The translations under genes and the position numbers were made by a program. DNA of 12,169 bases from Bacillota bacterium (GTDB taxonomy: Bacteria > Bacillota > DTU030): positions 1 through 12,169 of the forward strand of contig DUVO01000127.1 in assembly GCA_012841005.1 (NCBI GenBank), written 5' to 3'. Below, one piece after another: positions 1 to 12,011 of this stretch (the first letter of the stretch is position 1; the number at the start of each line of letters is the position of its first letter). The notes beneath the pieces are model-generated. The model was not told where the DNA came from. It saw only the letters and a list, made by a program, of their open reading frames with translations, and did not search any database.

Positions 1-246
1 AAGGTTGGTTTTAAGACAATTCTGTGTCGGGAAGAGTACGGGGAACTGATACGAATAGCTGCCTGGCTTTGCAAAATTTATGATGTGAGGGTAAGGGAGA
101 TAGGAAGTTACCTCAGCTCTTATTTGCATATGAAAAAACCGGATTGCGAAGGCTGTAATAACGACGGAAGGGCAAGGGGAATGTTTTTTAATAAGGCAAA
201 GCTGACCTACTGTCAGCTGATCTTTGAAAAAGGCGACAGCGACTAA
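1..246 (+). CDS. C-terminal part of a gene, possibly a class I SAM-dependent methyltransferase
   Basis: Frame 1 is open from the first base to TAA at 244-246 and encodes the last 81 residues of a protein whose start lies outside the window. The segment begins KVGFKTILCREEYGELIRIA, has an internal Cys-x2-Cys (DCEGC) and ends with a strand-like KLTYCQLIFEKGDSD. An opening GF-x-(hydrophobic) strand, an acidic/helical stretch and a closing strand before a charged tail is a common ending for class I methyltransferases. In the remembered TrsS neighbourhood a methyltransferase (TrsM, DVU_1556 type) is a partner, which is the contextual reason for the suggestion. No catalytic motif is visible, so the function is a weak inference. 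That the frame is coding is more secure: it ends 39 nt before the next gene on the same strand, and the next gene's RBS lies in that gap. Confidence 0.5.
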   Translation, partial: KVGFKTILCREEYGELIRIAAWLCKIYDVRVREIGSYLSSYLHMKKPDCEGCNNDGRARGMFFNKAKLTYCQLIFEKGDSD

Positions 247-285
247 TGATTGTCAAAGAGATTAATGACTTCTGGAGGCGAGAAG

Positions 286-1680
286 ATGTACGACTATGAT
301 GTGTTATGTATTGGCGCAGGTTCCGGCGGATGTGCGGCGGCAATGAGAAGCGCAGACAGGGGGATGAAGGTGGGACTGGTAGAATATCGCAAGAATGGGA
401 CCGGTGGAACATGTGTTAACAGGGGATGCATTCCGACAAAAGTGTTACTGCATTCCGCCAGGATTTATTCAGAGACCCTGGATGCCAAAAAGTATGGCGT
501 TGTTGTGCCAGAGGCTCACCTGGATTTAAAAACGGTACACAAAAATAAATCAGCCCTTGTCACCCGCTTGAAATTCGGTTTGGACAATATGCTGCTTAAA
601 CCCAGGGGCATCAGCCGGATCACAGGAAAGGCAAAATTGCTCAGCAACCATGAGGTGGAAATTACCGACGGCGATGAAGTGTCGGTGGTTACGGCGGAAA
701 ACATAATCATTGCTACGGGCAGTGAGCCGGCAATGATCCCGGCATTTAATATCGACGGGAAAAAAATCATCACCAGCGATGAAGCCCTGGATCTAATGGA
801 AATTCCCAAGGAGATGCTCATTGTCGGGGCAGGTGCCCTGGGGCTCGAATTCGGATATCTATTTTCGACCCTGGGTGCAGAGGTGACCATTGTAGAAATG
901 ATGTCCCATGTGGTGCCATCTGTGCAGGATGATGAATTCGCCAGGGTAATAGCCAATTATTTGGAAAAGAAGGGCATTGTCTTAAAATGTGGCTCAGCCA
1001 TTGAAAAAATAAGCGTGACCGGTGAGGATCGGGTCTGCTGTGAGCTGGCCAGTGGGGAAAAGTTGAAAGCTGATCTGGCCCTGGTGGCCATCGGCCGCAG
1101 CTTAAATACAAAGGGTATTGGTTTAGAAGAGGTGGGTGTTGAATTGACACCCAAAGGTCAGGTTGTCGTGGACGACCAGCTAAGAACCACTGTACCTAAT
1201 GTTTTTGCTGTCGGGGATATCGCTGAGGGGCCTCAGTTGTCCCATAAGGCCCAGAAGCAAGGATTAATTGCAGCAGAAGTAATTGCAGGGGATAACGTTC
1301 ATATGTCCTATGCTGCTATTCCGGCTGCTATATTTATCCAGCCGGAAATAGCGATGGTAGGTGTTACTGCAGATGAGGCGAGGGAAGCGGGAATAGAAAC
1401 CGTTGTCGGGAAGATGCATTTTACCAGTAATGAAAAAGCTATGACGATGCAGAAAACAGAAGGTATGATCAAGGTGACCGCCCGAGCAGACAACCATAAA
1501 TTAATCGGTTGCCATATCTTTGGCGAAGATGCATCGGTATTGGTAGGAGAGATTGCAACGGCCATACAAAATGATTTAACCTTGGCGGATATTGCCGAGA
1601 GTATCCATGCCCATCCGACCCTGGCGGAAATTATCATGGAAAGCTGCAAAAGTGCTTTGGGGAAGGCCTTTCACCAATAG
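286..1680 (+). CDS. lpdA: Dihydrolipoamide dehydrogenase-like FAD/NAD disulfide oxidoreductase
   Basis: This 464-residue protein is a class I pyridine nucleotide-disulfide oxidoreductase of normal family length. It has an N-terminal FAD-binding GAGSGG (residues 10-15), the redox-active disulfide in GGTCVNRGCIPTK (Cys43 and Cys48), an NAD-binding GAGALG (181-186) followed by Glu204, which favours NAD over NADP, the second FAD motif VFAVGDI (307-312), and the C-terminal dimer-interface catalytic pair in HAHPTLAE (His443, Glu448). All residues needed for lipoamide/NAD thiol-disulfide exchange are present, so it should be active. I chose the ATG at 286 because GGAGG (274-278) sits 7 nt upstream and the protein then starts directly at the FAD fold; an in-frame TTG at 250 lacks a comparable site. 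No lipoylated E2 or H-protein gene is nearby. The gene is followed by two radical SAM genes in the same operon, so it may be a specialised paralogue reducing a disulfide in that pathway rather than serving a 2-oxoacid dehydrogenase. Confidence 0.9.
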   Translation: MYDYDVLCIGAGSGGCAAAMRSADRGMKVGLVEYRKNGTGGTCVNRGCIPTKVLLHSARIYSETLDAKKYGVVVPEAHLDLKTVHKNKSALVTRLKFGLDNMLLKPRGISRITGKAKLLSNHEVEITDGDEVSVVTAENIIIATGSEPAMIPAFNIDGKKIITSDEALDLMEIPKEMLIVGAGALGLEFGYLFSTLGAEVTIVEMMSHVVPSVQDDEFARVIANYLEKKGIVLKCGSAIEKISVTGEDRVCCELASGEKLKADLALVAIGRSLNTKGIGLEEVGVELTPKGQVVVDDQLRTTVPNVFAVGDIAEGPQLSHKAQKQGLIAAEVIAGDNVHMSYAAIPAAIFIQPEIAMVGVTADEAREAGIETVVGKMHFTSNEKAMTMQKTEGMIKVTARADNHKLIGCHIFGEDASVLVGEIATAIQNDLTLADIAESIHAHPTLAEIIMESCKSALGKAFHQ

Positions 1681-1716
1681 ATTATGTAAGGTAAAGGGTA
1701 ATCTGGAGGGAGTATT

Positions 1717-3027
1717 TTGGTCGAAAAATTATTTGAAACAGAAAGCCTCTGCCCGGAATGCCTTAGGAGGATTCCGGCTTTTTATGAAAGGGAAAAGGGT
1801 AAGGTATACTTGAGAAAGACCTGTAAAGTTCACGGCAATTATAAAGTATTGGTTTGGAGTGATGCAGACCAATATCTCAGCTGGCGAGAACAATCTGTAC
1901 ATGCGGAAAAGGTTAGGAGTGGCGGACCGACCGAGAAAGGATGTCCCTTTGACTGCGGGCTGTGTATGGAGCACGAAGGGGGAACCTGCACCGCCGTTCT
2001 GGAAATTACCTATCAATGCAATATGGAATGCAGGGTTTGCTTTGCCGATACGACCAAGGCCTGTTACAACCCGTCATTAGAAAAGATTAAGGAAATGTAC
2101 CTGACAGTTTATCGAAACGGGGGATTTTGCTCCATACAATTGAGCGGTGGGGAACCTACCATGAGGGAGGACCTGACAGACATATTGAAAATGGGCAAAG
2201 AACTGGGTTTTCCCCACATCCAGGTAAATACCAATGGAATTAAAATTGCCCAGAATGCGGAATATCTGCAGAGCTTGAAAGAGGCCGGAGCTGATCTGAT
2301 CTATTTGCAGTTTGACGGTACCAGGGAGGAAATATATCAAAAAATCCGCGGCAGGGATATGTGGGCCATAAAGCAGCAGGCGGTGGCAAATTGCGAGAAG
2401 GTGCGGATTGGGGTCATACTGGTGCCCACGATTATTCCCCATATAAACGCTGACAATATCGGAGAAATCGTTGCCTTTGCCAAGGAACACATGCCGACGG
2501 TCAGGGGAGTACATTTTCAGCCCATCAGCTATTTCGGCAAATTTCCGGGGGGAGTACCACAGGACGAAGACCGAATAAATCTTTCCGATATTATTTTTGC
2601 ACTGGAGAAGCAGACAAAGGGTGAAATCAAGGGTGATGATATTGTCCCGAGAAAACGATACGATCCCCACTGTGCCTTCAGCAGCCTGTTTTACCTGTCC
2701 GAGGAGGGAAAACTGAAGGCCCTTACTGAAAAGAAACAAAACATGTTCATGGATGAGAAAACAGATTTTGCCAGGAGGGCCAATGCATTCACAAGTGCCC
2801 ACTGGAGAATGCCGGTGGAAGGGGAAAAGCAAGGCAGTTTCCGGGAAAGGTTGAGAAGTTATACTTTATCTATTACCGGTATGGGGTTTCAAGATGTTTG
2901 GAACATTGATCTGGGACGGCTGAAGGGTTGTTGTGTCCATGTGGTAACAGCCAATAACCAGGTGACACCTCTTTGTGCCTTCCATGTAACCAGCAGTAAG
3001 GGCGAGAGGTTATATAAAAATGGGTAG
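1717..3027 (+). CDS. Radical SAM protein of the MJ0619/Tes (COG1964) type, TrsS-like, full cysteine set
   Basis: This 436-residue radical SAM enzyme starts at TTG 1717, with GGAGG at 1705-1709 placed 7 nt before it. The N-terminal module has LCPEC (Cys12, Cys15) and KTCKVHG (Cys36, His39), resembling a rubredoxin-like or zinc-ribbon iron site. Next comes an extra cluster motif CPFDCGLC (Cys76, Cys80, Cys83) with His86 and Cys91. The SAM-cleaving cluster is CNMECRVC (Cys101, Cys105, Cys108), followed by SGGEP (143-147), which binds the SAM amino group. The C-terminus has FQDVWNID and GCCVHV (vicinal Cys405, Cys406) with Cys420 in PLCAFH. This layout matches COG1964, which includes archaeal tetraether lipid synthase and MJ0619. 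Closer bacterial relatives are, as I recall, called TrsS and can be selenoproteins; here both vicinal positions are TGT cysteine codons. The reaction is unknown. It overlaps the next gene by 8 nt, implying coupled translation of two related radical SAM proteins. Confidence 0.85.
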   Translation: MVEKLFETESLCPECLRRIPAFYEREKGKVYLRKTCKVHGNYKVLVWSDADQYLSWREQSVHAEKVRSGGPTEKGCPFDCGLCMEHEGGTCTAVLEITYQCNMECRVCFADTTKACYNPSLEKIKEMYLTVYRNGGFCSIQLSGGEPTMREDLTDILKMGKELGFPHIQVNTNGIKIAQNAEYLQSLKEAGADLIYLQFDGTREEIYQKIRGRDMWAIKQQAVANCEKVRIGVILVPTIIPHINADNIGEIVAFAKEHMPTVRGVHFQPISYFGKFPGGVPQDEDRINLSDIIFALEKQTKGEIKGDDIVPRKRYDPHCAFSSLFYLSEEGKLKALTEKKQNMFMDEKTDFARRANAFTSAHWRMPVEGEKQGSFRERLRSYTLSITGMGFQDVWNIDLGRLKGCCVHVVTANNQVTPLCAFHVTSSKGERLYKNG

Positions 3028-4288
3028 GCTGCTGTATTATACCAAAAGCGTCTGTCCGGTGTGCCTGGCGATGATTGATGCGGCAATCGTGGAAGAGCGT
3101 GACGGGATCTACATGGATAAGGAGTGCGAAAAACACGGCAGCTTTCAGACCCTGATCTGGCAGGATAGTGGGGAAAACTATTATCGCTGGCTTTCCTGCG
3201 GCGGCATTGATGTGGAAAGATTGCCACGCACGGTGGAGGAAGCGGAGAGGGAGATCAAGGGTAGGTCCTTTGCCGATGAGGCATGGGTGCAGCCAAGTAC
3301 CGCTGCCTTAATGACAACTAACAGGTGCAACAGCAATTGCCCTGTATGTTTTACCAGGGACAGGAATGAGCCTTTACACGAACCATCCTTGGAGCAGTGC
3401 AAGGATTTAATCATCAATTACAAAAACAAGGCGGGGGAGAATGCCCTTTTGGAATTGTGTGGCGGTGAACCGACGCTGAGGGAAGACATCTTTACCATAG
3501 CAAAATTTGCCTCTGGAAGTGGGTTTGATTATATCCAGTTGAATACCAACGGAATTGAGCTTGCCAAGGGCAGTGAATACTGTGCAAGGCTTAAAGCAAA
3601 TGGGATTACAACGGTATACTTGGGTTTTGACGGGGTAACAGAGAAACCTTATCTTAAGAAATATGGCAGAGAAATGTTGGACATCAAAAAGTCTGCCCTG
3701 GAAAACTGTAAAAAGGGCGGACTGGCCGTTGTGCTGGTTACCTGCATTATTCCCCAGACGAACGATAATGAGTTGGGGGACATCATAGCCTTTGCCAAGG
3801 CAAATATGCCGACGGTCAAAGGGGTATACCTGCAGCCGATAAGTTATTTCGGCCATTATCCTCAGGGGGACATGAGAAGGATTACTATTCCGGAAGTACT
3901 GAGGAGGTTGGAAGTACAAACCGGGGGAGAAATCCGTGCCGATGATTTTTCCCCGGGGGCTTATGAGCATCCCCAGTGCTCTTTTAATGGATGCTTTCTT
4001 CTCAACAAGGATAACAGGTTCAAAAGCCTGACCCGCTTTGCACAGAGAGAAAGGAGTCCGGAGGGGTACAAAGGAATACGCCAATTCATTAAAAAAACAT
4101 GGAGTCCCAGCCCTGTTCCCATACTTACCATCGGCGGAATGGCCTTCCAGGATGCCTGGAATATTGATGTATTGCGCATAATGAGGTGTTCTGTCCAGAT
4201 TATTGGCCGGGGCAACAAAATGATTCCATTATGCAGTAAATATCTCACGAGCTTAAGTGGTGAAAAAATACACCCGGGAATTAGTTAA
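3020..4288 (+). CDS. Second radical SAM protein, paralogue of the upstream gene lacking the extra CxxxCxxC motif
   Basis: This 422-residue protein starts at ATG 3020, inside the end of the previous gene, with a GAGAGG site at 3004-3009. It is plainly homologous to its neighbour: VCPVC (Cys12, Cys15), KECEKHG (Cys36), the radical SAM cluster CNSNCPVC (Cys103, Cys107, Cys110), CGGEP (147-151), the shared LQPISYFGHYP (271-281, against FQPISYFGKFP), FQDAWNID (376-383) and PLC (Cys405). It differs in two informative places. The region corresponding to CPFDCGLC...C in the upstream protein is FADEAWVQPSTAALMT, with no cysteine, so one auxiliary Fe-S cluster should be absent. The vicinal C-terminal Cys-Cys is Cys390-Ser391. 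The core SAM motifs are intact, so it should still cleave SAM. Possible roles are partner in a heterodimer or catalyst of a separate step. The substrate is unknown. Confidence 0.85.
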   Translation: MGRLLYYTKSVCPVCLAMIDAAIVEERDGIYMDKECEKHGSFQTLIWQDSGENYYRWLSCGGIDVERLPRTVEEAEREIKGRSFADEAWVQPSTAALMTTNRCNSNCPVCFTRDRNEPLHEPSLEQCKDLIINYKNKAGENALLELCGGEPTLREDIFTIAKFASGSGFDYIQLNTNGIELAKGSEYCARLKANGITTVYLGFDGVTEKPYLKKYGREMLDIKKSALENCKKGGLAVVLVTCIIPQTNDNELGDIIAFAKANMPTVKGVYLQPISYFGHYPQGDMRRITIPEVLRRLEVQTGGEIRADDFSPGAYEHPQCSFNGCFLLNKDNRFKSLTRFAQRERSPEGYKGIRQFIKKTWSPSPVPILTIGGMAFQDAWNIDVLRIMRCSVQIIGRGNKMIPLCSKYLTSLSGEKIHPGIS

Positions 4289-4311
4289 AAGGCATTTGGG
4301 GTGATGCCGAA

Positions 4312-5673
4312 ATGACGGTTCATTTGGAAGAGGGACTTTTTGAACTATGTTCACAAAGGATCAGAGCTGATGAGGAATTTAAGATCATAGCGAGGAACAG
4401 AAACTTTGATCAGGTTGATTATGATTTGTTCCAGGAATTCAGATTATATCAGTTAAAAAAGACCATCAGGTATGTAGCGGAAAACAGCAGTTTTTACAAG
4501 GAAAAATTTCGGGAAAGTAATGTAGGCCCAGAGGATATAAAAAGCTTTTGCGATCTGGCAAGCTTTCCCTTTACATTTCCGGAAGACCTGCGCAATACAA
4601 GTTATGATTTTCTCTGCATCTCCCAGCGGGATGTGGAAAGACCTGTTACCTTTTTTAGCTCCGGTGCAACGGGGCTTAAGAAAAGAATCTATTTCTCCAA
4701 AGGGGATGTAAGGAAGATTATGGAGTTCCTTCCCCGGGGGATGAATACTGTTATCGACAGGGGTAGCGGCATTATACAGATACTTTTGCCCAATACAGCG
4801 GGAAGGGGGATTGGATATCTTCTGGGGAAAAGCCTGGAATCCTTTGGAATAAAGGCCATCATTTCAGATTTGGAATCACCGCCGGAGGTAATTATTAAGT
4901 CCTGCCTGGCTACCAGGCCCAATGTCTGGTTCGGGGATGCGGGCATTATTTTCAGGGTTACAAAGGAAATGGAAAGCAGGCTGGATTTATCCAAGCTGGG
5001 AGTGCAGGTGCTCTTCCTTACCATGGGGAATGTATCCAGTTCAATGAAAAGATACCTGGAGAAGGTTTGGCAATGTCGTGTGGTTACCCACTACGGTTTA
5101 ACCGAAATGGGCTGGGGATTGGCAGTTGATTGCGATACCTGCCCTGGATATCACTACAATGAACTGGATGTTATTGCAGAGGTGGTTGACCCTGAAACAG
5201 GCAGAGTGCTTCCCGACGGCGAAGTGGGTGAGTTGGTGTTTACCAGTATCGGCAGGGAAGCGATGCCCCTTATCCGTTTTCGCAGCGGAGATATTTCCAG
5301 CCTGTCCAAGTCTACCTGCGGAAGTAATCTTCAGCTAATGGAGCATATTGTAAGGCGAAAGGAAGGCACATATGAATTCGGTGCTGGCCGATACATCTAT
5401 CCGGCCCTGTTGGAAGAGGTGATTTACGATATAGATGAAGTGATTGATTATCGCGCATCTATCAAAGGTCGACATCTGTTTATTGAATTGGAAACCATCG
5501 CCAAGGCCGATTATTGCCGGTCTGAAGAGAAGTTGAAGGAAGAAGCGGTTAAACGTCTTCTTGAACTACCTGAAATCAGGGATGCTGGTGTCAAATTAAC
5601 AGTAGAATTTTTGGCGCAGGGTGCCTTAAAACCATTCTGCAAGCAAAAAAAAGTGATTAGAGAAAGAAAGTGA
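4312..5673 (+). CDS. PaaK-like AMP-forming acyl/aryl-CoA ligase (ANL superfamily)
   Basis: This 453-residue protein has the layout of phenylacetate-CoA ligase: an N-terminal helical part with RLYQLKKTIRYVAENSSFYK (44-63), the phosphate loop FSSGATGLKKR (115-125), the adenylate-binding YGLTEMG (261-267), GEVGELVFTSIG (303-314), the ribose-binding PLIRFRSGD (319-327) and a lysine-rich C-terminal end (440-453) where the catalytic lysine of the second half-reaction lies in PaaK. The family activates a carboxylic acid with ATP to an acyl-AMP and normally transfers it to CoA. The P-loop is atypical, SSGATG followed by LKKR in place of the usual TSGTTGxPK, but keeps the Ser/Gly/Thr/Lys features. ATG 4312 follows the previous stop by 23 nt with a G-rich site (TGGGGTG, 4297-4303). 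It resembles what I remember as the DVU_1553 family ligase found next to TrsS. The acid substrate cannot be told from sequence, and no aromatic-degradation genes are nearby. Confidence 0.82.
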   Translation: MTVHLEEGLFELCSQRIRADEEFKIIARNRNFDQVDYDLFQEFRLYQLKKTIRYVAENSSFYKEKFRESNVGPEDIKSFCDLASFPFTFPEDLRNTSYDFLCISQRDVERPVTFFSSGATGLKKRIYFSKGDVRKIMEFLPRGMNTVIDRGSGIIQILLPNTAGRGIGYLLGKSLESFGIKAIISDLESPPEVIIKSCLATRPNVWFGDAGIIFRVTKEMESRLDLSKLGVQVLFLTMGNVSSSMKRYLEKVWQCRVVTHYGLTEMGWGLAVDCDTCPGYHYNELDVIAEVVDPETGRVLPDGEVGELVFTSIGREAMPLIRFRSGDISSLSKSTCGSNLQLMEHIVRRKEGTYEFGAGRYIYPALLEEVIYDIDEVIDYRASIKGRHLFIELETIAKADYCRSEEKLKEEAVKRLLELPEIRDAGVKLTVEFLAQGALKPFCKQKKVIRERK

Positions 5674-5677
5674 TTTT

Positions 5678-6256
5678 GTGAAAAACTACATCCCGGAAAA
5701 ATATGCACGCCTTATAACGGAGTATTGCCTGGAAAGTTCTTCCCTCAACCCTTTGGGTCTGGCCTATGATATCATGAAGCATGAGGAAATGCGCATGCAC
5801 GGGCCTGAGCATCATTATTTGACGGCAGCAGTTGTAATAACTGCCTATTGCAATGAAAAAGACCTTGGTGCCGAAAAAGGGGAGATGTTGGGAAAAATCC
5901 TTTACAGAACAGGCGCCATTCCGCCGGGGACCTGCGGATTCTATGGTGTCTGCGGTGCTGTGCTGGCTGTCGGTGCTACAGTTAGCCTTATTTTAGAGGC
6001 AACTCCCTTTTCAAAGAATGAACTAAAAGTACTGAATACGATTACCGCGAAGTGTCAGCAGGAAATGGCTCGTTTTGAAGGCCCCAGGTGCTGTAAAAGG
6101 GCTACCTTATTGAATGTTTATACAGCAGCTAAATGTATGAACAGCATGCTGGAGACCGCCTTTATTATTGAAAAACTCAGGGTTTGCGAATTCAGCCAGT
6201 CCAATGAAACTTGCGGTATGGGTGAATGCCAGTTTTATACCCGGGAACAAAATTAA
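5678..6256 (+). CDS. DUF5714 protein, cysteine-rich, function unknown
   Basis: This 192-residue protein begins at GTG 5678, four nt after the ligase stop, so it is almost certainly translated from the same message. I recognise DUF5714 by a set of conserved blocks: HGPEHHYL (41-48), PPGTCGFYGVCGA (82-94), EGPRCCKR (134-141), and a C-terminal CEFSQSNETCGMGECQFY in which Cys170, Cys179 and Cys184 are spaced as a probable metal or cluster site. Other candidate ligands are Cys86, Cys92, Cys138, Cys139 and His41/His45/His46. The segment around 93-107 is hydrophobic but too short to be a clear membrane span, so a soluble protein is likely. The family has no assigned biochemical function that I know of. 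Its place at the end of a radical SAM/CoA-ligase operon, where related systems carry another Cys-rich protein of the C-GCAxxG-C-C type, suggests a redox, sulfur or metal role; that is inference. Confidence 0.8.
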   Translation: MKNYIPEKYARLITEYCLESSSLNPLGLAYDIMKHEEMRMHGPEHHYLTAAVVITAYCNEKDLGAEKGEMLGKILYRTGAIPPGTCGFYGVCGAVLAVGATVSLILEATPFSKNELKVLNTITAKCQQEMARFEGPRCCKRATLLNVYTAAKCMNSMLETAFIIEKLRVCEFSQSNETCGMGECQFYTREQN

Positions 6257-6308
6257 AGCTGCTGCGTCGAAAGGGTTAACATGAGAAAAGAGCGAAGGGG
6301 TGAGAATA

Positions 6309-7268
6309 ATGAGAAAGAAAGTCTTGCTGCTTGTGATATCATTTTTGCTATTGGGTACGCTAATTGCCTTTGCTCAAAACCCTTCCCCGGTAAAGATCAT
6401 CTTTAATGGTGTGGAGTTGGCATCAGATGTGCCTCCCATCATTATCAATGGACGGGTGCTGGTTCCCGTGCGGGTTATTGCGGAAAAATTTGGTGCTGAT
6501 GTAGAGTGGGATCCGGAAAATTACACTGTTCACATTGTCACCAACAGAGCCGACGGGGAAGAAGAAGGAGAGATTGTATTCAAAGGGGGTTTTTACAGGC
6601 CTGTTCCCGGAGAACTGCCGGAGGAGATTACTGCCTGGATTGACTATTCCCGGGAAATACCTTGTGTGCAGGAAAAATACCATAATGGTAACCGCTATGT
6701 CCTGGTAACAGAAGGGATGAAACCCACAGGGGGATACGGTGTGGAAGTAGAAGAAGTTGTCGAAAGGGAAGACAAACTGGAGCTGGTGGTCAGATCCTAT
6801 GCCCCGAAACCGGGGCAAATGGTAACCGAAGCCCTCACCTATCCCTATGATCTGATTATTCTTGAAAACAAGGAACTGCCCCTGGCCTTTACCGATGTCG
6901 ATGACCCGGATAGATACTTTATGAACCTCATTGATATGGAAACGATAGATAAGCCTATTGCGGCCGGGTCGGAATGGATTAAGGTTTTCAGTCCGGCTCC
7001 GGGGGAGGAAGTTGCAGGGACCATTAATCTAACGGGAATAGCCAATGTTTTTGAGGGGACAGTAAGTTATGAGCTTCTTGCGGATAACGGTGAAGTATTG
7101 GACAGTGGTTTTACCATGGCCGCCATGGGTGACTGGGCTTACTTTAGAGAGGAGATCCCGGTCCCGGAAGAGGCAGGCTCCGGCCCCTTGACCCTGCAGC
7201 TTTACAGTGTAAGCATGAAGGATGGGTCGAAGATGTTTGTGGTGGAAATCCCCTTGATTGTAAAATAG
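6309..7268 (+). CDS. Secreted protein: copper-amine-oxidase-N stalk, PrcB-like and Gmad2 domains
   Basis: This 319-residue protein starts at ATG 6309, where AAGGGGTGAG (6295-6304) gives a good site; an in-frame GTG at 6300 would lie within that site. Residues 1-22 form a classical signal peptide (RKK, then a Leu/Ile-rich core, cleavage after AFA), so it is exported. Residues 27-78 match the copper amine oxidase N-terminal/stalk domain (FNG...INGRVLVPVRVIAEKFGA, VEWDPE, VHI). Residues about 129-187 resemble the PrcB C-terminal domain (YVLVTEGMKPTGGYGVEVEE, then TYPYDLIIL). Residues 224-317 match the Gmad2 immunoglobulin-like domain (IKVFSPAPGEEVAGTINLTG, later FREEIPVPEEA). Such proteins are common in spore-forming Firmicutes and are thought to act on the cell surface or in germination. 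It lies 52 nt after the DUF5714 gene with no terminator between, so it may be co-transcribed, but nothing links it functionally to the redox genes. Confidence 0.85.
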   Translation: MRKKVLLLVISFLLLGTLIAFAQNPSPVKIIFNGVELASDVPPIIINGRVLVPVRVIAEKFGADVEWDPENYTVHIVTNRADGEEEGEIVFKGGFYRPVPGELPEEITAWIDYSREIPCVQEKYHNGNRYVLVTEGMKPTGGYGVEVEEVVEREDKLELVVRSYAPKPGQMVTEALTYPYDLIILENKELPLAFTDVDDPDRYFMNLIDMETIDKPIAAGSEWIKVFSPAPGEEVAGTINLTGIANVFEGTVSYELLADNGEVLDSGFTMAAMGDWAYFREEIPVPEEAGSGPLTLQLYSVSMKDGSKMFVVEIPLIVK

Positions 7269-7498: not shown

Positions 7499-8272
7499 TT
7501 ATAACCTGTCTTTAATCATATCTGCCGCCTTTTTCCCCGAAAGGAGCATACCACCGAAAATTGGCCCCATGCGGTGTGAACCGAAGACAGCATTACTGGA
7601 CAGCCCGGCCACAAATAAGCCGGGATATACTTCGCAGGTTTTATCTACAGTGTCCCTTTCGGCCCTTTCCGCCCACATGGAACCTTCCCATTCAATCTCG
7701 CCGCTGGCTGTCGGTAACTTTACTTTATTCTTTTTTTGCAGGATACTGACTACTTCGGCATCGTGTCCCGTACCGTCGATAACGTATTTAGCTTCCACGG
7801 CAATGGGGTCTACGAGGAGTTTGGCCATCTTTACCGGCGTCCAGTTCAGGACCAGACCGGTAACCCTTTCCTCCCGCACCATGACATCTTCGACGGTTAC
7901 CAAGTTGAATATCTTGGCGCCGGCCCTGATGGCCTTCATGGTGAGGGTGGTGACGGCTTCAACCGAATCGGCAGTATAGTAGCCGGGTTGATAGAGGGTG
8001 TGGCGGATGTCCAGTTCTTCCAGGATCGGCTTGGCCTCCTCCTGAAAGACAACGTGGTTAAACATGATGCCGCCGGCCCACATCCCGCCGCCGGGATTGG
8101 ACCGCCGTTCAAAAATTACTGTTTTGATACCGGCCTTTGCCAGATAATAAGCAGCAGTTAAACCCGACGGCCCTGCTCCGACAATGGCCACATCCGATTC
8201 CAGGTAGTTGAGAAGGTCTTGTAGGTAGGTCGTAATAATTGCTTTGCTGATTAACTTTTCCTTAATTTCCAT
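7499..8272 (-). CDS. thi4: Thi4-type thiazole synthase (ADP-thiazole carboxylate synthase) with Leu at the Cys/His site
   Basis: This 257-residue protein is a Thi4 family member. It has the dinucleotide-binding DVAIVGAGPSGLTAAYYLAK (27-46), FERRSNPGGGMWAGG (54-68), the conserved WTP...VDP and GTGHDAEVV block (144-175), and the C-terminal GLSSNAVFGSHRMGPIFGG (223-241). Thi4 makes the thiazole half of thiamin from NAD and glycine. The yeast enzyme gives up sulfur from its own Cys205, whereas the Methanocaldococcus enzyme has a histidine there and uses free sulfide. In this protein the aligned residue, two before the Asp of VDP, is Leu153 (CTC at 7816-7814), so it cannot be a suicide enzyme and also lacks the usual histidine. 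The start ATG (8272) has GGAGGAG about 5-8 nt upstream. tenA lies 96 nt upstream in the same direction, under a TPP riboswitch. Confidence 0.92.
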   Translation of the reverse strand: MEIKEKLISKAIITTYLQDLLNYLESDVAIVGAGPSGLTAAYYLAKAGIKTVIFERRSNPGGGMWAGGIMFNHVVFQEEAKPILEELDIRHTLYQPGYYTADSVEAVTTLTMKAIRAGAKIFNLVTVEDVMVREERVTGLVLNWTPVKMAKLLVDPIAVEAKYVIDGTGHDAEVVSILQKKNKVKLPTASGEIEWEGSMWAERAERDTVDKTCEVYPGLFVAGLSSNAVFGSHRMGPIFGGMLLSGKKAADMIKDRL

Positions 8273-8368
8273 TTTCCTCTCCTCCGATAAAATTTTTCCT
8301 CATTACATACCAAAATCCACCTTTTCCGTTGACAGATCTACCCGGGGAAACTGGTAAGTATTTTGTTA

Positions 8369-9037
8369 TCAGAATATCCACTCTTCCAGGGTATGGGCCA
8401 TTTCCCAGAACAGGGATTCATATTTACTGCTTATGAGAAAGGCTTTTTTCATACTTTCCCTTTCCTCTGCGCCAGCTTTTCGGGCATACTTTTCCAGCAG
8501 TTCTTTGCTCCACTCAGTGAGCTTGGCAAATTCATCCGAGGAATACATGGCAATCCAGTCCCGGTAGGGGTTGTCTTCGCCGGTATTTCCGACGGCCTCC
8601 AACCTGGTACCTATCTCGTAAAAGCCCCAGAAACAGGGGAGCAGGGCAGCCACCGTTACTCCCACCGGTTCAAGAGCAGCCGTCCGCACCAGGAAATCTG
8701 TGTAACCCTGGCAGGTCGGTGATTTTTCCAGGGTATCCAGTTCCTGGGCAGTAATGCCAAACTGGGAGCAATAGCTGCGGTGCAGGCTCATCTCAGTGTT
8801 GAGGATACCGTCCATCAAGCGGGCAAAACTCTGCATGTCCTCCAAATTGTTGGCTTTGGCTCCGGCCAGGGCGAATACCCGGGCGTAGTCCTGCAGGTAG
8901 AGATAATCCTGTTTAATCCAGTAGATGAATTTTCCCCTTTTCAGGGAGCCGTCCTTGATGCCACTGATAAAGGGGTGGTTGTGCCAACCATCCCAGATAT
9001 CCCGGGCTTCTTCCCGGAGTTGGGCGCAAAAGTTCAA
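8369..9037 (-). CDS. tenA: TenA, thiaminase II / aminopyrimidine aminohydrolase
   Basis: This 222-residue all-helical protein hydrolyses aminopyrimidines derived from degraded thiamin so that the HMP half can be reused. With the start placed at TTG 9037, the key residues fall at the numbering known for Bacillus subtilis TenA: Asp44 (KQDYLYL), Tyr112 (GYTDF) and the nucleophile Cys135 (LLPCFWGFYEIG). Glu207 in SKYESLFWEMA corresponds to the catalytic glutamate near the C-terminus. The same start has a full GGAGG (9050-9046) 8 nt upstream; upstream in-frame starts would extend into the leader and have no family support. Its position downstream of the TPP riboswitch and upstream of thi4 fits a thiamin salvage and synthesis operon. 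The match is too close for another TenA/HO family member to be likely. Confidence 0.93.
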   Translation of the reverse strand: MNFCAQLREEARDIWDGWHNHPFISGIKDGSLKRGKFIYWIKQDYLYLQDYARVFALAGAKANNLEDMQSFARLMDGILNTEMSLHRSYCSQFGITAQELDTLEKSPTCQGYTDFLVRTAALEPVGVTVAALLPCFWGFYEIGTRLEAVGNTGEDNPYRDWIAMYSSDEFAKLTEWSKELLEKYARKAGAEERESMKKAFLISSKYESLFWEMAHTLEEWIF

Positions 9038-9077
9038 GGTAACCACCTCCAAAATAATAATTACGGAACAATGGGTT

Positions 9078-9118
9078 GGCCTTTGGGAAGGACGAAGTAT
9101 ATTTATTCCCAAAGGGCC
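9078..9118 (-). repeat. Hairpin in the tenA leader
   Basis: On the plus strand CCTTTGGGAA (9080-9089) is exactly complementary to TTCCCAAAGG (9106-9115), and two more pairs (GG at 9078-9079 with CC at 9117-9118) can form across a single bulged G. The loop is about 16 nt and AT-rich. It lies 41 nt upstream of the tenA start and is not followed by a T-run, so it is not a terminator. A stabilising or processing structure in the leader is possible; its role is unknown. Confidence 0.5.
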
Positions 9119-9130
9119 GTGGAAAGCCTG

Positions 9131-9170
9131 TTATATAGCCATAATAATAGCCCTCCTTTTTTGGGAGAGC
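9131..9170 (-). other. Leader hairpin covering an RBS for a three-codon ORF
   Basis: On the minus strand, GCTCTCC (9170-9164) can pair with GGAGGGC (9156-9150) around a CAAAAAA loop, with one G-U pair. The second arm contains a GGAGG nine nt before ATG GCT ATA TAA (9142-9131), a possible Met-Ala-Ile peptide. This may be a mini-ORF acting in translation or stability control, or simply the remnant of a lost gene start. There is no independent evidence that it is translated. Confidence 0.3.
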
Positions 9171-9209
9171 CGAAGTGCAGGATGCAAAGGTTTAACCTGC
9201 GCCTGGGAT

Positions 9210-9243
9210 AAAAAAACTTTTACCCCTCAGGCTGGGTAAAAGT
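9210..9243 (-). terminator. Intrinsic terminator (attenuator) of the TPP riboswitch
   Basis: On the minus strand ACTTTTACCC (9243-9234) pairs perfectly with GGGTAAAAGT (9225-9216) around an 8-nt loop, and the stem runs directly into seven consecutive T residues (9216-9210). This is a textbook Rho-independent terminator located 26 nt after the riboswitch and before tenA. The 5' arm includes TTACCCAG (9239-9232), the exact complement of CTGGGTAA within the aptamer (9296-9289), which supplies a mutually exclusive antiterminator. Confidence 0.88.
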
Positions 9244-9268
9244 GTATTGGTCCACCTCTGATCCAAAT

Positions 9269-9360
9269 TCCAAATCCCTTCGCTGGTATTACCCAGATCA
9301 GGTTATAAGGGTCTGAACCCCTAGGGTTCATTCTCAGCCATGATTTCGGCTCCCCTTGGA
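9269..9360 (-). promoter_or_regulatory. TPP riboswitch (THI element)
   Basis: Read on the minus strand, the segment has the conserved parts of the thiamin pyrophosphate aptamer in order: GGGGAGCC, GGCTGAGA (CTGAGA at 9337-9332), an ACCCTAGGGGT-containing P3 region, ACCTGATC (9303-9296), TGGGTAATACCAGCGAAGGG, and a closing P1 in which TCCAA (9360-9356) pairs with TTGGA (9273-9269). It precedes tenA and thi4, both thiamin genes. Binding of TPP should free the 5' arm of the terminator at 9243-9210 and stop transcription. The sequence match leaves little room for another class. Confidence 0.95.
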
Positions 9361-9392
9361 TTATTCAGTTTTGTAAAATTCGCTAAATATAA

Positions 9393-9851: not shown

Positions 9852-9890
9852 AAAGTTAAACGATATTTTGGTTTTTTGGGAGTGCTCAAA

Positions 9891-10565
9891 TTGACGCTGA
9901 CTGGTAGACGCAAGGAATTTCTGACAGCGATTCAAGAAACCTATGCCGCAACGGGTGAACCTCTTCATTATGAAGATATTGCTCGTTTACTTGGTGTCAG
10001 CAAGTGGACGGCATATGATATGGTCAGGGAACTGGCAAAGCAGGGGCTCGTATCAATTGAATATACTACTAACCAGAGTGAGAAACAGGTGGGGCGCTCC
10101 CGGCTGGCCATCAGACCAGCTGTAGCTTCCTCCTTTTTTATTTCCCTGCCGGAGGAATCGGCCAGGGTATTGGAAATGATCCGCACTTGTGAACCCGGTG
10201 CAACTAAAGAGCATTTTCAGGTCTTCATGCAAAGGGCAACGGCCTCGGATTCTAAGGGAATGTTCTGCTTTTATCTGGTGGCGGCCCTGGTACTTTTATC
10301 CAATCGACTGATTCGCAGCGGGGGTTTGCTCAGTATCCTGGAATCCCTTCTTGTCTTCTCTAGCTCGGAACTGGGGCTGGTGGCAGCGGCGGGGATGGTA
10401 GTGGCTTTGATTATCCGGGGGGGCGTTCATCCCGAAATGGTAAACCACCTGCAAGAATCTGTTGCCTGCTTCCACGAATACATTGGTGAAATAACCGAGG
10501 AAGAGCGCACTAAAATTACCGGCTTTTGGCAGAAGGCATTAAATATAAACCTGGCTGAAATCTAG
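9891..10565 (+). CDS. Winged-helix transcriptional regulator with a hydrophobic C-terminal half
   Basis: This 224-residue protein starts at TTG 9891, with GGGAG (9878-9882) 8 nt upstream; TTG 9876 and GTG 9882 are in frame but overlap that site. Residues 5-60 form a winged helix-turn-helix: GEPLHYEDIARLLGVSKWTA (22-41) is the HTH and MVRELAKQGLVSIEY (44-58) leads into the wing, in the style of DtxR, MarR or LexA N-terminal domains. The rest (85-224) has no signature I recognise. It contains two hydrophobic stretches, FYLVAALVLLS (127-137) and LGLVAAAGMVVALIIRGG (161-178), compatible either with a buried all-helical ligand domain or with membrane association. No metal-binding or sugar-binding motif is visible. 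The radical SAM gene begins 87 nt downstream on the same strand, so that gene is the most likely target or operon partner. Confidence 0.7.
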   Translation: MTLTGRRKEFLTAIQETYAATGEPLHYEDIARLLGVSKWTAYDMVRELAKQGLVSIEYTTNQSEKQVGRSRLAIRPAVASSFFISLPEESARVLEMIRTCEPGATKEHFQVFMQRATASDSKGMFCFYLVAALVLLSNRLIRSGGLLSILESLLVFSSSELGLVAAAGMVVALIIRGGVHPEMVNHLQESVACFHEYIGEITEEERTKITGFWQKALNINLAEI

Positions 10566-10598
10566 CAATATTTTTTCCGCTAATTTTTGGTCTTTTGG

Positions 10599-10623
10599 GT
10601 GATATCCCAGAGGGGGATTTCAC
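10599..10623. repeat. Imperfect palindrome between regulator and radical SAM gene
   Basis: GTGATATCCC (10599-10608) and GGGATTTCAC (10614-10623) are complementary except for one position, with an AGAGG loop. It lies 30 nt before the ATG of the radical SAM gene and 13 nt before its RBS. It could be an operator for the upstream regulator or an RNA hairpin modulating expression of the second gene. Confidence 0.45.
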
Positions 10624-10652
10624 TGAATAAATGTTGGGGAGGAGGAATCGTT

Positions 10653-12011
10653 ATGGCGGCGGGTGATTATTTGCGCAGCCAGGCAATAGTGCAGGCTTTA
10701 AACTTCGCGGCGAAGGATCCGGAGCATAATTTGGAAAAACTGGTCAGTGTAGCAGAAAAACTGGCATTGGACCCGTGTCACAAGCGCAATGTAGAGGGAG
10801 TAAAGAGGTTTCTTACCCGGGACAGCAATTGGAAAGAATTTGCCTTCCGGCTGCTGTGGGAGACCAACCCCAATGTCAGGAACCGCCTGGGAGTGAACTT
10901 TTTTGCCAACGCTGCTTTCAAGGGAGTGCCCAAACAGCACCAGCTGCAAGAGGAATTGGGCTTTTCCATCCCCTTTGCCCTGCTCATTGATCCTACCTCT
11001 GCCTGCAATCTAAAATGTACCGGGTGTTGGGCCGGTGAATACTCCCAGGCCGACAATCTGGAGACTGAGCTGATGGAGAGAATTTTAAGAGAAGCCAGGG
11101 AATTGGGCATCTATTTCATTGTCTTCTCGGGAGGAGAACCCCTGGTCAGGAAAAAGGATCTCCTCTACCTGGCAGAAAAATTCAATGATATGGCCTTCTT
11201 GGCCTTCACCAACGGCACCCTGGTTGACGATGAATTTGCCGACGGACTGGCCGAAGTAGGGAACTTTACCCTGGCCTTCAGCCTGGAGGGCTTTGCTGGG
11301 GCCACCGACGGGCGCCGGGGGAAGGGTGTTTTTGCGAAGGTAATGCAGGCCATGGACCGGCTGCGGGAGAGGGGCGTTATTTTCGGGGCCTCTACCACCT
11401 ACACCCGGCAGAATACCGGAGAGGTTGGCTCCGAGGCCTATATCGATATGCTGATAGACAAGGGCTGTGCTTACAGCTGGTACTTCACCTATGTCCCCGT
11501 AGGCAGAAATCCCGACTTGAACCTGATGGCGACCCCCAAGCAGCGGGCCTACATGTACCGCCAGGTCAATCATTTCCGGCAGACAAAACCTATTTTTGTC
11601 CTGGATTTCTGGAATGACGGGGACCACAGCGGTGGCTGTATTGCCGGGGGCAGGCGGTATCTCCACATTAATGCCGCGGGAGATGTGGAGCCATGTGCCT
11701 TCATTCATTATGCAACTGATAACATCAAAAATAAGAGCCTCCGCGAAGTTTTGGCTTCTCCCCTCTTTGCCGCCTACCAGAAACGGATGCCCTTTAATGA
11801 TAACCACCTGCGCCCCTGTCCCCTCATCGACAATCCCGAAAAGATACCGGAGATGGTTGCCGAATCTGGTGCCCATAGTACCCAGGAACAATCGCGGTAT
11901 ACACCAGAGCAATTGGCCCAATCCCTGGAGCAGTATGCTGCGGCGTGGGGTAAGGTTGCCGACGGGTTAAAAAGGGAAAAACCCGTTAGGGCTGCGGAGG
12001 GCATAAAGTAA
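10653..12011 (+). CDS. Radical SAM protein with SPASM-like C-terminal cysteines, function unknown
   Basis: This 452-residue protein starts at ATG 10653, preceded by GGAGG (10641-10645) at 7 nt; an upstream in-frame start at 10587 has no site and would add an unconserved leader. Residues 1-105 are a helical N-terminal extension. The SAM-cleaving cluster is CNLKCTGC (Cys118, Cys122, Cys125) in DPTSACNLKCTGCWAGEY, followed by FSGGEPLVRKKDL (158-170), FTNGTL (185-190) and SLEGF (210-214). The C-terminal part has GGCIAGGRRYLHINAAGDVE (327-346) with Cys329, then PCAFIHY (Cys348) and LRPCPLIDNPEK (Cys389), typical of SPASM-type auxiliary-cluster regions, though with few cysteines. This family is widespread in Clostridia, and I know of no firm function for it. 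No short precursor peptide of a RiPP is evident upstream. Pairing with a regulator of unknown ligand is the only clue from context; it is not closely similar to the two COG1964-type proteins at 1717-4288. Confidence 0.85.
   Translation: MAAGDYLRSQAIVQALNFAAKDPEHNLEKLVSVAEKLALDPCHKRNVEGVKRFLTRDSNWKEFAFRLLWETNPNVRNRLGVNFFANAAFKGVPKQHQLQEELGFSIPFALLIDPTSACNLKCTGCWAGEYSQADNLETELMERILREARELGIYFIVFSGGEPLVRKKDLLYLAEKFNDMAFLAFTNGTLVDDEFADGLAEVGNFTLAFSLEGFAGATDGRRGKGVFAKVMQAMDRLRERGVIFGASTTYTRQNTGEVGSEAYIDMLIDKGCAYSWYFTYVPVGRNPDLNLMATPKQRAYMYRQVNHFRQTKPIFVLDFWNDGDHSGGCIAGGRRYLHINAAGDVEPCAFIHYATDNIKNKSLREVLASPLFAAYQKRMPFNDNHLRPCPLIDNPEKIPEMVAESGAHSTQEQSRYTPEQLAQSLEQYAAAWGKVADGLKREKPVRAAEGIK

Follow-up and report, generated by a model that had tools for sequence, protein, structure and literature searches.

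What might a bacterium make with an operon that unites two related radical S-adenosylmethionine (SAM) enzymes with a ligase, a flavoprotein and a methyltransferase? The question is raised by the first 6,256 bases of contig DUVO01000127.1 (assembly GCA_012841005.1), from a Bacillota bacterium. The window analysed here, 12,169 nucleotides in length, is one entire contig of a metagenome-assembled genome (MAG; 1.67 Mb, 339 contigs, 87.1% complete), and genes 5′ of its base 1 lie outside view. Bases 1–6256 hold six genes on the + strand, separated by 39, 36, −8 (an overlap), 23 and 4 bases when the flavoprotein start is set at 286. They encode a SAM-dependent methyltransferase, of which the contig edge leaves only the 3′ part (1–246); a dihydrolipoyl-dehydrogenase-type flavoprotein of 464 residues (LPD; 286–1680); two radical SAM enzymes, rSAM1 (1717–3027) and rSAM2 (3020–4288); a PaaK-like, AMP-dependent ligase (4312–5673); and a Cys-rich DUF5714 protein (5678–6256). 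An initial annotation had singled out these closely spaced genes as a set belonging to no pathway that could be named; the layout stands as described there, and no described pathway with this set was found.

The reading that we favour, tentatively and with somewhat less than even confidence, is an anaerobic acyl-modifying pathway with C–S or C–C bond formation and dithiol recycling, encoded by a paired variant of the TrsS/DVU_1551-1557 cassette. The gene families, the gene order, the common clade of rSAM1 and rSAM2 and their retained metal-ligand positions are established by sequence comparison, and the anatomy and relatedness of the operon are well supported; the chemistry of the pathway and its substrate are what we infer.

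Conservation of the paired loci

A scan of one-genome-per-species contigs with an rSAM2 profile yielded 74 loci. Counts below use the 18 (L060–L077) with at least 41% identity over nearly the whole query; the 56 others, at 32% identity or less, were not counted, and 14 of them supplied outgroups for the tree. The hosts of the 18 comprise 15 Bacillota, one member of the Desulfovibrionaceae and two Chloroflexota. Genes for rSAM1, rSAM2 and the ligase occur together in 15 of the 18 loci, and the remaining three (L061, L073 and L074) stop at a contig end. The nearest named relative, L060 from a Clostridiales MAG, has an identical order of methyltransferase, LPD, rSAM1, rSAM2 and ligase, with identities of 62% (methyltransferase fragment), 79%, 74%, 77% and 73%, respectively. 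Because this order is the same in L060 and the trio recurs so widely, the grouping is more than chance, and bases 1–6256 hold a genuine, conserved operon of anaerobic bacteria; the co-occurrence in other genomes for which the initial annotation advised a search is thus borne out.

Locus by locus, both radical SAM genes are present in 16 of the 18 (the second one of L076 and L077 being assigned through the tree), the ligase in 17, any HGD-D-type gene in 12, the methyltransferase and a DVU_1557-like ribbon in nine each, LPD in eight and DUF5714 in seven. Adding second clusters on other contigs brings the methyltransferase to 15 of 18 genomes and LPD to 14 of 18. Upstream of its methyltransferase, L060 encodes a C_GCAxxG_C_C protein, a DUF4258-like protein and a DVU_1557-like zinc ribbon; any such ribbon of the window would be located 5′ of base 1, as in L060. 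After the ligase, where the window has DUF5714, L060 encodes a 449-residue protein without a Pfam match that is distantly related to the HGD-D type, sharing 24% identity with the L065 alpha-type protein (E 7e-36).

A long version of the locus, with fifteen recognised same-strand genes, is found in Schaedlerella arabinosiphila DSM 106076 (L065:131-13967). Its order is BadF, HGD-D beta, HGD-D alpha, DUF4258-like protein, zinc ribbon, methyltransferase, LPD, DUF5714, lipoyl domain, HGD-D-type protein, rSAM1, rSAM2, ligase, a further DUF5714 and LplA. The presence of the cassette in a named strain makes experimental tests possible.

The distribution of the pair is patchy. Two orders were sampled at 294 further genomes each, and neither yielded the pair at E <= 1e-110; rSAM1 was matched (E <= 1e-30) in three of 41 relatives of the window genome, its own genome counted; two same-genus genomes among the 41 gave no rSAM1 match at that threshold. 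In a protein database, 635 proteins match rSAM2 at E <= 1e-40, a number that will take in other TrsS-type proteins, with identities of 50–99% among the 120 matches listed.

Relation to the TrsS cassette

The name TrsS was reportedly introduced by Haft and Tolstoy in 2025. A literature search on TrsS, DUF5714 and DVU1553-DVU1559, to which the paper naming TrsS was external, returned no functional study of the cassette and no function assigned to TrsS or its partner families. A proteome table (PMC10920352) groups Desulfovibrio vulgaris DVU_1559 with ethanol metabolism, and a differential table (PMC11784015) also includes it; the parts of these two sources that hold the tables make no mention of the TrsS genes. 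Scanning 299 genomes of the window's phylum with the TrsS model gave matches at E <= 1e-80 in 22, the window's own included, and 17 of these were above the cut-off.

Twenty-four TrsS-type loci were examined (L034–L057), five of which (L052–L056) are other TrsS-like loci. A molybdenum (Mo) aldehyde oxidoreductase stands at 19 of the 24, and 15 of those 19 have a ligase of the DVU_1553 kind; no gene at any of the 24 has rSAM2 or the window-type LPD as its best match. At L057, from a genome of the window's own family (G300), seven genes lie above their respective cut-offs (bits/cut-off): the aldehyde oxidoreductase (1699.6/1100), a dicluster protein (979.1/530), DVU_1557 (103.1/60), DVU_1556 (224.5/155), DVU_1555 (176.4/103), TrsS (667.5/490) and DVU_1553 (438.4/300). 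One further genome (G042) has three TrsS-like loci (L044, L045 and L056), two of them by a Mo aldehyde oxidoreductase and one without.

With this classic cassette (DVU_1551-1559) the window shares a TrsS-type radical SAM enzyme, a DVU_1553 ligase and a related methyltransferase, and the window's relatives also share the DVU_1557-like ribbon, the C_GCAxxG_C_C protein and the DUF4258-like domain. Unlike the classic cassette, paired loci have two TrsS-type enzymes and add LPD, DUF5714 and HGD-D genes; neither the Mo aldehyde oxidoreductase nor the dicluster fusion was found on the window contig, which is cut at base 1, or at the 18 paired loci. The likeness to the TrsS/DVU_1551-1557 neighbourhood put forward in the initial annotation therefore survives in part: the window passes the TrsS and DVU_1553 models, and it is a paired relative of that cassette rather than the cassette itself. 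The name TrsM, also invoked there, was absent from all family matches returned.

The redox components of these loci differ. The dicluster protein combines a GltD-like part and two CCG domains with a C-terminal DUF4258-like domain in a single fused chain; in paired loci the last of these is a free-standing protein. In the Chloroflexota loci L076 and L077, HdrA-like and HdrCB-like genes precede the pair, and all ten dicluster or HdrCB-like proteins examined carry two CX(29-41)CCX(32-35)CXXC motifs each. Comparison of the loci gives a common core of DUF4258-like domain, DVU_1557-like ribbon, methyltransferase, TrsS-type enzyme and ligase, which is joined to one of three redox modules: the Mo enzyme with an HdrB-like fusion; LPD with HGD-D, sometimes with a lipoyl protein; or HdrA with HdrCB. 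The element common to all three would be a disulfide. One core with three redox modules narrows the core's role and points to disulfide redox as the possible common part.

Two radical SAM enzymes related to Tes

rSAM1 is above the cut-off of the TrsS model NF045646 (533.8 vs 490 bits) and is a Cys form, with no in-frame TGA. The family-model check proposed in the initial annotation thus placed rSAM1 in TrsS and the ligase in DVU_1553, and failed to place rSAM2, which scores 376.7 bits against the same 490 and appears to be a TrsS paralogue, not TrsS itself. In a tree of 73 rows, rSAM1 and rSAM2 form one clade (100/98), within which the rSAM2 sequences (100/99) and 15 non-Chloroflexota rSAM1 sequences (100/99) each form a clade and the two Chloroflexota rSAM1 rows group beside rSAM2 (89/84). 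A single duplication is the likely origin of the two enzymes; it is likely rather than proven because the tree is midpoint-rooted, the L106 branch is very long and the Chloroflexota rSAM1 rows lie beside rSAM2.

The best solved relative of both enzymes is the archaeal tetraether lipid synthase Tes (MJ0619, 7tol), with E values of 1.4e-85 for rSAM1 and 5.7e-100 for the rSAM2 profile. The next is MoaA (1.2e-8 and 4.3e-11, respectively), and Tes is the sole solved relative matched across nearly the full length of both. Ligand columns were mapped onto Tes through alignments and published residue numbers (PMC9433317); the passages of that source that give them do not name the Cys ligands of the C-terminal cluster. 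All 17 rSAM1 sequences have the ligand positions of the rubredoxin-like site and the radical SAM cluster, together with three C-terminal-cluster Cys; the 19 rSAM2 rows share these positions, except that one of them lacks the first rubredoxin Cys. The position of the labile Met ligand holds Met in 15 of 17 rSAM1 and 19 of 19 rSAM2 sequences. The N-terminal cluster site is present in all rSAM1 and absent in 14 of 19 rSAM2 sequences, the window's among them; it is retained in those of L071, L072, L074, L076 and L077. Tes has an auxiliary cluster that binds substrate carbon via sulfur, and by alignment both enzymes retain its ligand positions. When SAM is limiting, Tes accumulates a sulfur-bearing lipid, which was read as an S–C intermediate (PMC9433317). 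The initial annotation had suggested sulfur insertion, methylation or C–C coupling as the radical chemistry, and all three would fit the kept cluster ligands.

The likeness to Tes extends to the domain order and to nearly all metal-ligand positions. Differences are the failed Tes cut-off (NF045702; 347.2 for rSAM1 and 294.8 for rSAM2 vs 450 bits), the loss of Tyr459, the missing N-terminal cluster site of the window's rSAM2 and the other gene partners. A link to defence was considered and rejected: only viperin models were matched (26–62 bits for rSAM1, 40–41 for rSAM2), a result ascribed to the shared radical SAM core.

The partner proteins

The lipoamide-dehydrogenase-like enzyme recognised in the initial annotation is above the lipoamide_DH cut-off (TIGR01350; 477.5 vs 408.8 bits) and carries the redox site GGTCVNRGCIP (CVNRGC, CX4C) and an HAHPT motif, matching the dihydrolipoyl-dehydrogenase type by sequence. 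ATG at 286 is the likelier start, over TTG at 250, because GGAGG lies upstream and the start of the L065 protein corresponds to it.

The ligase belongs to the DVU_1553 family (NF045666; 330.6 vs 300 bits), and its K446 is conserved in all 27 aligned ligases. Three Cys of this family, C255, C274 and C336, are likewise conserved in 27 of 27, and C102 in 26.

The DUF5714 protein scores 174.3 bits against a PF18978 cut-off of 26.2. Twenty columns are invariant in 45 sequences and include six Cys (C86, C92, C138, C139, C170 and C179), in keeping with the Cys-rich character first noted for it. Against MbdU (NF045648) it matches over one domain only and remains below the cut-off (78.3 vs 600). Kinship with C_GCAxxG_C_C proteins is not claimed, profile comparison having given a probability of 20% over 36 columns.

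The 81-residue methyltransferase fragment has no Pfam or NCBIfam match of its own; it was recognised as a possible methyltransferase end in the initial annotation, and an alignment spanning 98% of the fragment, at 62% identity, with the complete methyltransferase of L060:4655-5416 bears this out. On the DVU_1556 model the L060 enzyme scores 84.6 bits, below the cut-off of 155, and the window fragment gives no match. The methyltransferases resemble ArsM models; a metalloid substrate was considered and rejected, for an alignment of 19 sequences shows no ArsM-like Cys triad: Cys159 (L060 numbering) is present in every one, and Cys43, which belongs to the SAM-binding motif, is present in 18.

DVU_1557-like zinc ribbons occur in both paired and classic cassettes (for example, L060:4458-4649). 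All 39 small open reading frames of this kind (L034–L187) terminate in Lys, for the most part within LEGK or LEDK; 36 of these rows pass a length and CxxC filter (35 distinct) and three fall outside it, which makes 38 distinct rows. The fixed C-terminal Lys suggests that the tail itself is used.

The proposed pathway

In the favoured acyl-modifying pathway, the ligase would adenylate a carboxylic acid and transfer it to CoA or a carrier. rSAM1 and rSAM2 would each abstract hydrogen from an unactivated chain carbon and form a C–S bond, or a C–C bond via a C–S intermediate, at the C-terminal [4Fe-4S] cluster, in the manner of Tes. The methyltransferase would methylate the product or an intermediate, and LPD would cycle dithiol and disulfide with NAD(H), the role that the HdrB-like protein would take in classic and Chloroflexota cassettes; DUF5714 may be a metal-binding helper. 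We count in favour of this scheme the full-length match to Tes, the kept ligand positions, the ligase and LPD scores above their cut-offs and the apparent swap of the disulfide module, with CCG-motif proteins in classic and Chloroflexota loci and LPD in 14 of 18 paired genomes; in G303, G305 and G306, a lipoyl-domain protein and an LplA are also part of the gene set. If the pair does form C–S bonds on acyl chains, it would add another way of placing sulfur on unactivated carbon.

Several observations weigh against this scheme. CCG domains are also known from proteins without disulfide-reducing activity. L063 and L066 have no methyltransferase or LPD near the pair, and their rSAM1 enzymes carry Lys at the labile Met position. 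Tyr459 of Tes is replaced by V, A or I in rSAM1 and rSAM2; Tes itself was active as Y459F and Y459L (PMC9433317). Protein-bound lipoate is not general among paired genomes, because three (G310, G313 and G316) show neither LplA nor GCV_H; the Biotin_lipoyl matches of the first two are biotin-type, in a ten-genome search to which G316 did not belong. Finally, the HGD-D, BadF, transporter and alcohol or aldehyde genes by some loci suit catabolism equally well.

Alternative readings

The strongest rival, which we consider possible but unlikely, is the catabolism of an imported monocarboxylic acid, in which the ligase would form the CoA ester, the radical enzymes would rearrange or cleave it, and an ATP-driven HGD-D/BadF dehydratase/reductase (in classic loci, the Mo enzyme) would handle the redox step. 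In its favour, 12 of 18 rSAM2 loci have HGD-D-type genes and several have BadF activases; major facilitator superfamily (MFS) transporters adjoin the core in L071, L076 and L077; L071 has Fe-ADH, aldehyde dehydrogenase, PTA_PTB and acetate/butyrate-kinase-type genes upstream; and Fe-ADH lies near the classic locus L039. Many relatives have genes of such dehydratase-type systems (2-hydroxyacyl-CoA dehydratase or double-cubane reductase) linked to the pair; no HGD-D/BadF gene is on the window contig, and the linked HGD-D subunit of L065 falls below the double-cubane cut-off (173.8 vs 350). The HGD-D matches of the window genome are weak (28.5 and 24.2 bits), though beside a BadF-type gene, and L060 offers only its distant HGD-D-type protein. 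Catabolism also leaves the methyltransferase, the paired Tes-type enzyme and the lipoyl set unexplained.

Improbable, in our view, is a second proposal, that the pair is a lipoyl-type cofactor synthase inserting one sulfur each into a carrier-bound acyl chain, like LipS1/LipS2, with LPD and LplA as partners. It parallels the lipS1-sLpl(AB)-lipT-lipS2 clusters described beside shdr-lbpA of sulfur oxidation (PMC10332631; PMC6067878), with which the window shares two radical SAM enzymes and an NAD(P)H-type flavoprotein; a lipoate ligase, lipoyl carrier or Hdr-like proteins add to the likeness in some relatives only. Unlike the enzymes of those systems, the radical enzymes here are Tes-like and are accompanied by an acyl ligase and a methyltransferase, and no lipoyl carrier, LplA or Hdr gene is on the window contig.

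Both a lipoyl carrier and LplA were found in three relatives only, G303 (L062), G305 (L064) and G306 (L065). In each, an LplA gene at the radical SAM locus is the genome's sole LplA-B_cat match, and the sole LPD match (E <= 1e-60) adjoins HGD-D genes, among the candidates scored (41 of 41 in G303, 50 of 82 in G305 and 50 of 73 in G306). A lipoyl-domain protein of about 99 residues adjoins LPD and contains FEVQKRVLEIHAP in all three; Lys occupies the expected site, and among NCBIfam models the protein best matches E2 lipoyl domains. No match to GCV_H, 2-oxoacid_dh or LipA was obtained in the three genomes. More widely, LipA had no match in 17 of 19 genomes, no search aimed at LipS1/LipS2 having been made. 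The window genome has an E2 and a second LPD, no GCV_H and no LplA above the cut-off (one match, 18.9 bits); these absences of lipoyl genes are weak evidence because MAGs may be incomplete. Set against a lipoyl synthase are the classic cassettes, which have a single TrsS and no lipoyl genes at their loci, and the three genomes without LplA and GCV_H. Scavenged lipoate is, moreover, a simple alternative, because the L065 LplA scores 277.3 bits, just under the TIGR00545 cut-off of 280 for an ordinary LplA.

A carrier-protein pathway would join several of these elements, and we give it little credence. Here the Lys-ending DVU_1557-like ribbon would act as scaffold, the ligase would load an acid on the ribbon or on the lipoyl-domain protein, and the Tes-type pair would insert two sulfurs, to give a novel dithiol cofactor, bound to protein, which would be recycled by LPD or an HdrB-like protein and would feed Mo or HGD-D enzymes. 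Very unlikely, too, is the manufacture of bacterial membrane-spanning lipids by the joining of fatty-acyl tails, as archaeal Tes does. The full-length homology to Tes speaks for it, and bacterial Tes homologues have been proposed as makers of such lipids (PMC8941075); both enzymes are nevertheless below the Tes cut-off, rSAM1 passes TrsS, and the recurring partners include no glycerolipid gene.

Hardly credible is a housekeeping E3 of 2-oxoacid dehydrogenase or glycine cleavage adjoining an unrelated TrsS operon by chance: LPD does pass the lipoamide_DH model, and that of G301 may serve both roles because it is the genome's only LPD match despite a glycine cleavage cluster, but a second LPD, 39% identical to the first, is encoded in the window genome, and in 14 of 18 paired genomes an LPD of the window's kind accompanies methyltransferase or HGD-D genes.

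Neighbouring genes

The operon is followed by a gene at 6300–7268 with Cu_amine_oxidN1, PrcB_C and Gmad2 domains. It is not a recurring neighbour, its sole match in the compared loci being partial (28% coverage, in L041). Scans for promoter-like sites (15 vs 11.0 in shuffles, standard deviation 3.6) and terminator-like sites (5 vs 8.6, standard deviation 3.0) were uninformative. At 9876–12011 (+), a helix-turn-helix protein is encoded close to a further radical SAM/SPASM protein, for which no named NCBIfam equivalog was obtained (best TIGR04055, 98.3 vs 500 bits). The − strand of 7499–9365 carries a Thi4-type gene (7499–8272) behind a thiamine pyrophosphate (TPP) riboswitch (9257–9365; 70.8 vs 54.3 bits), and between them lies a gene at 8369–9112 (−) that we take to be TenA-like.

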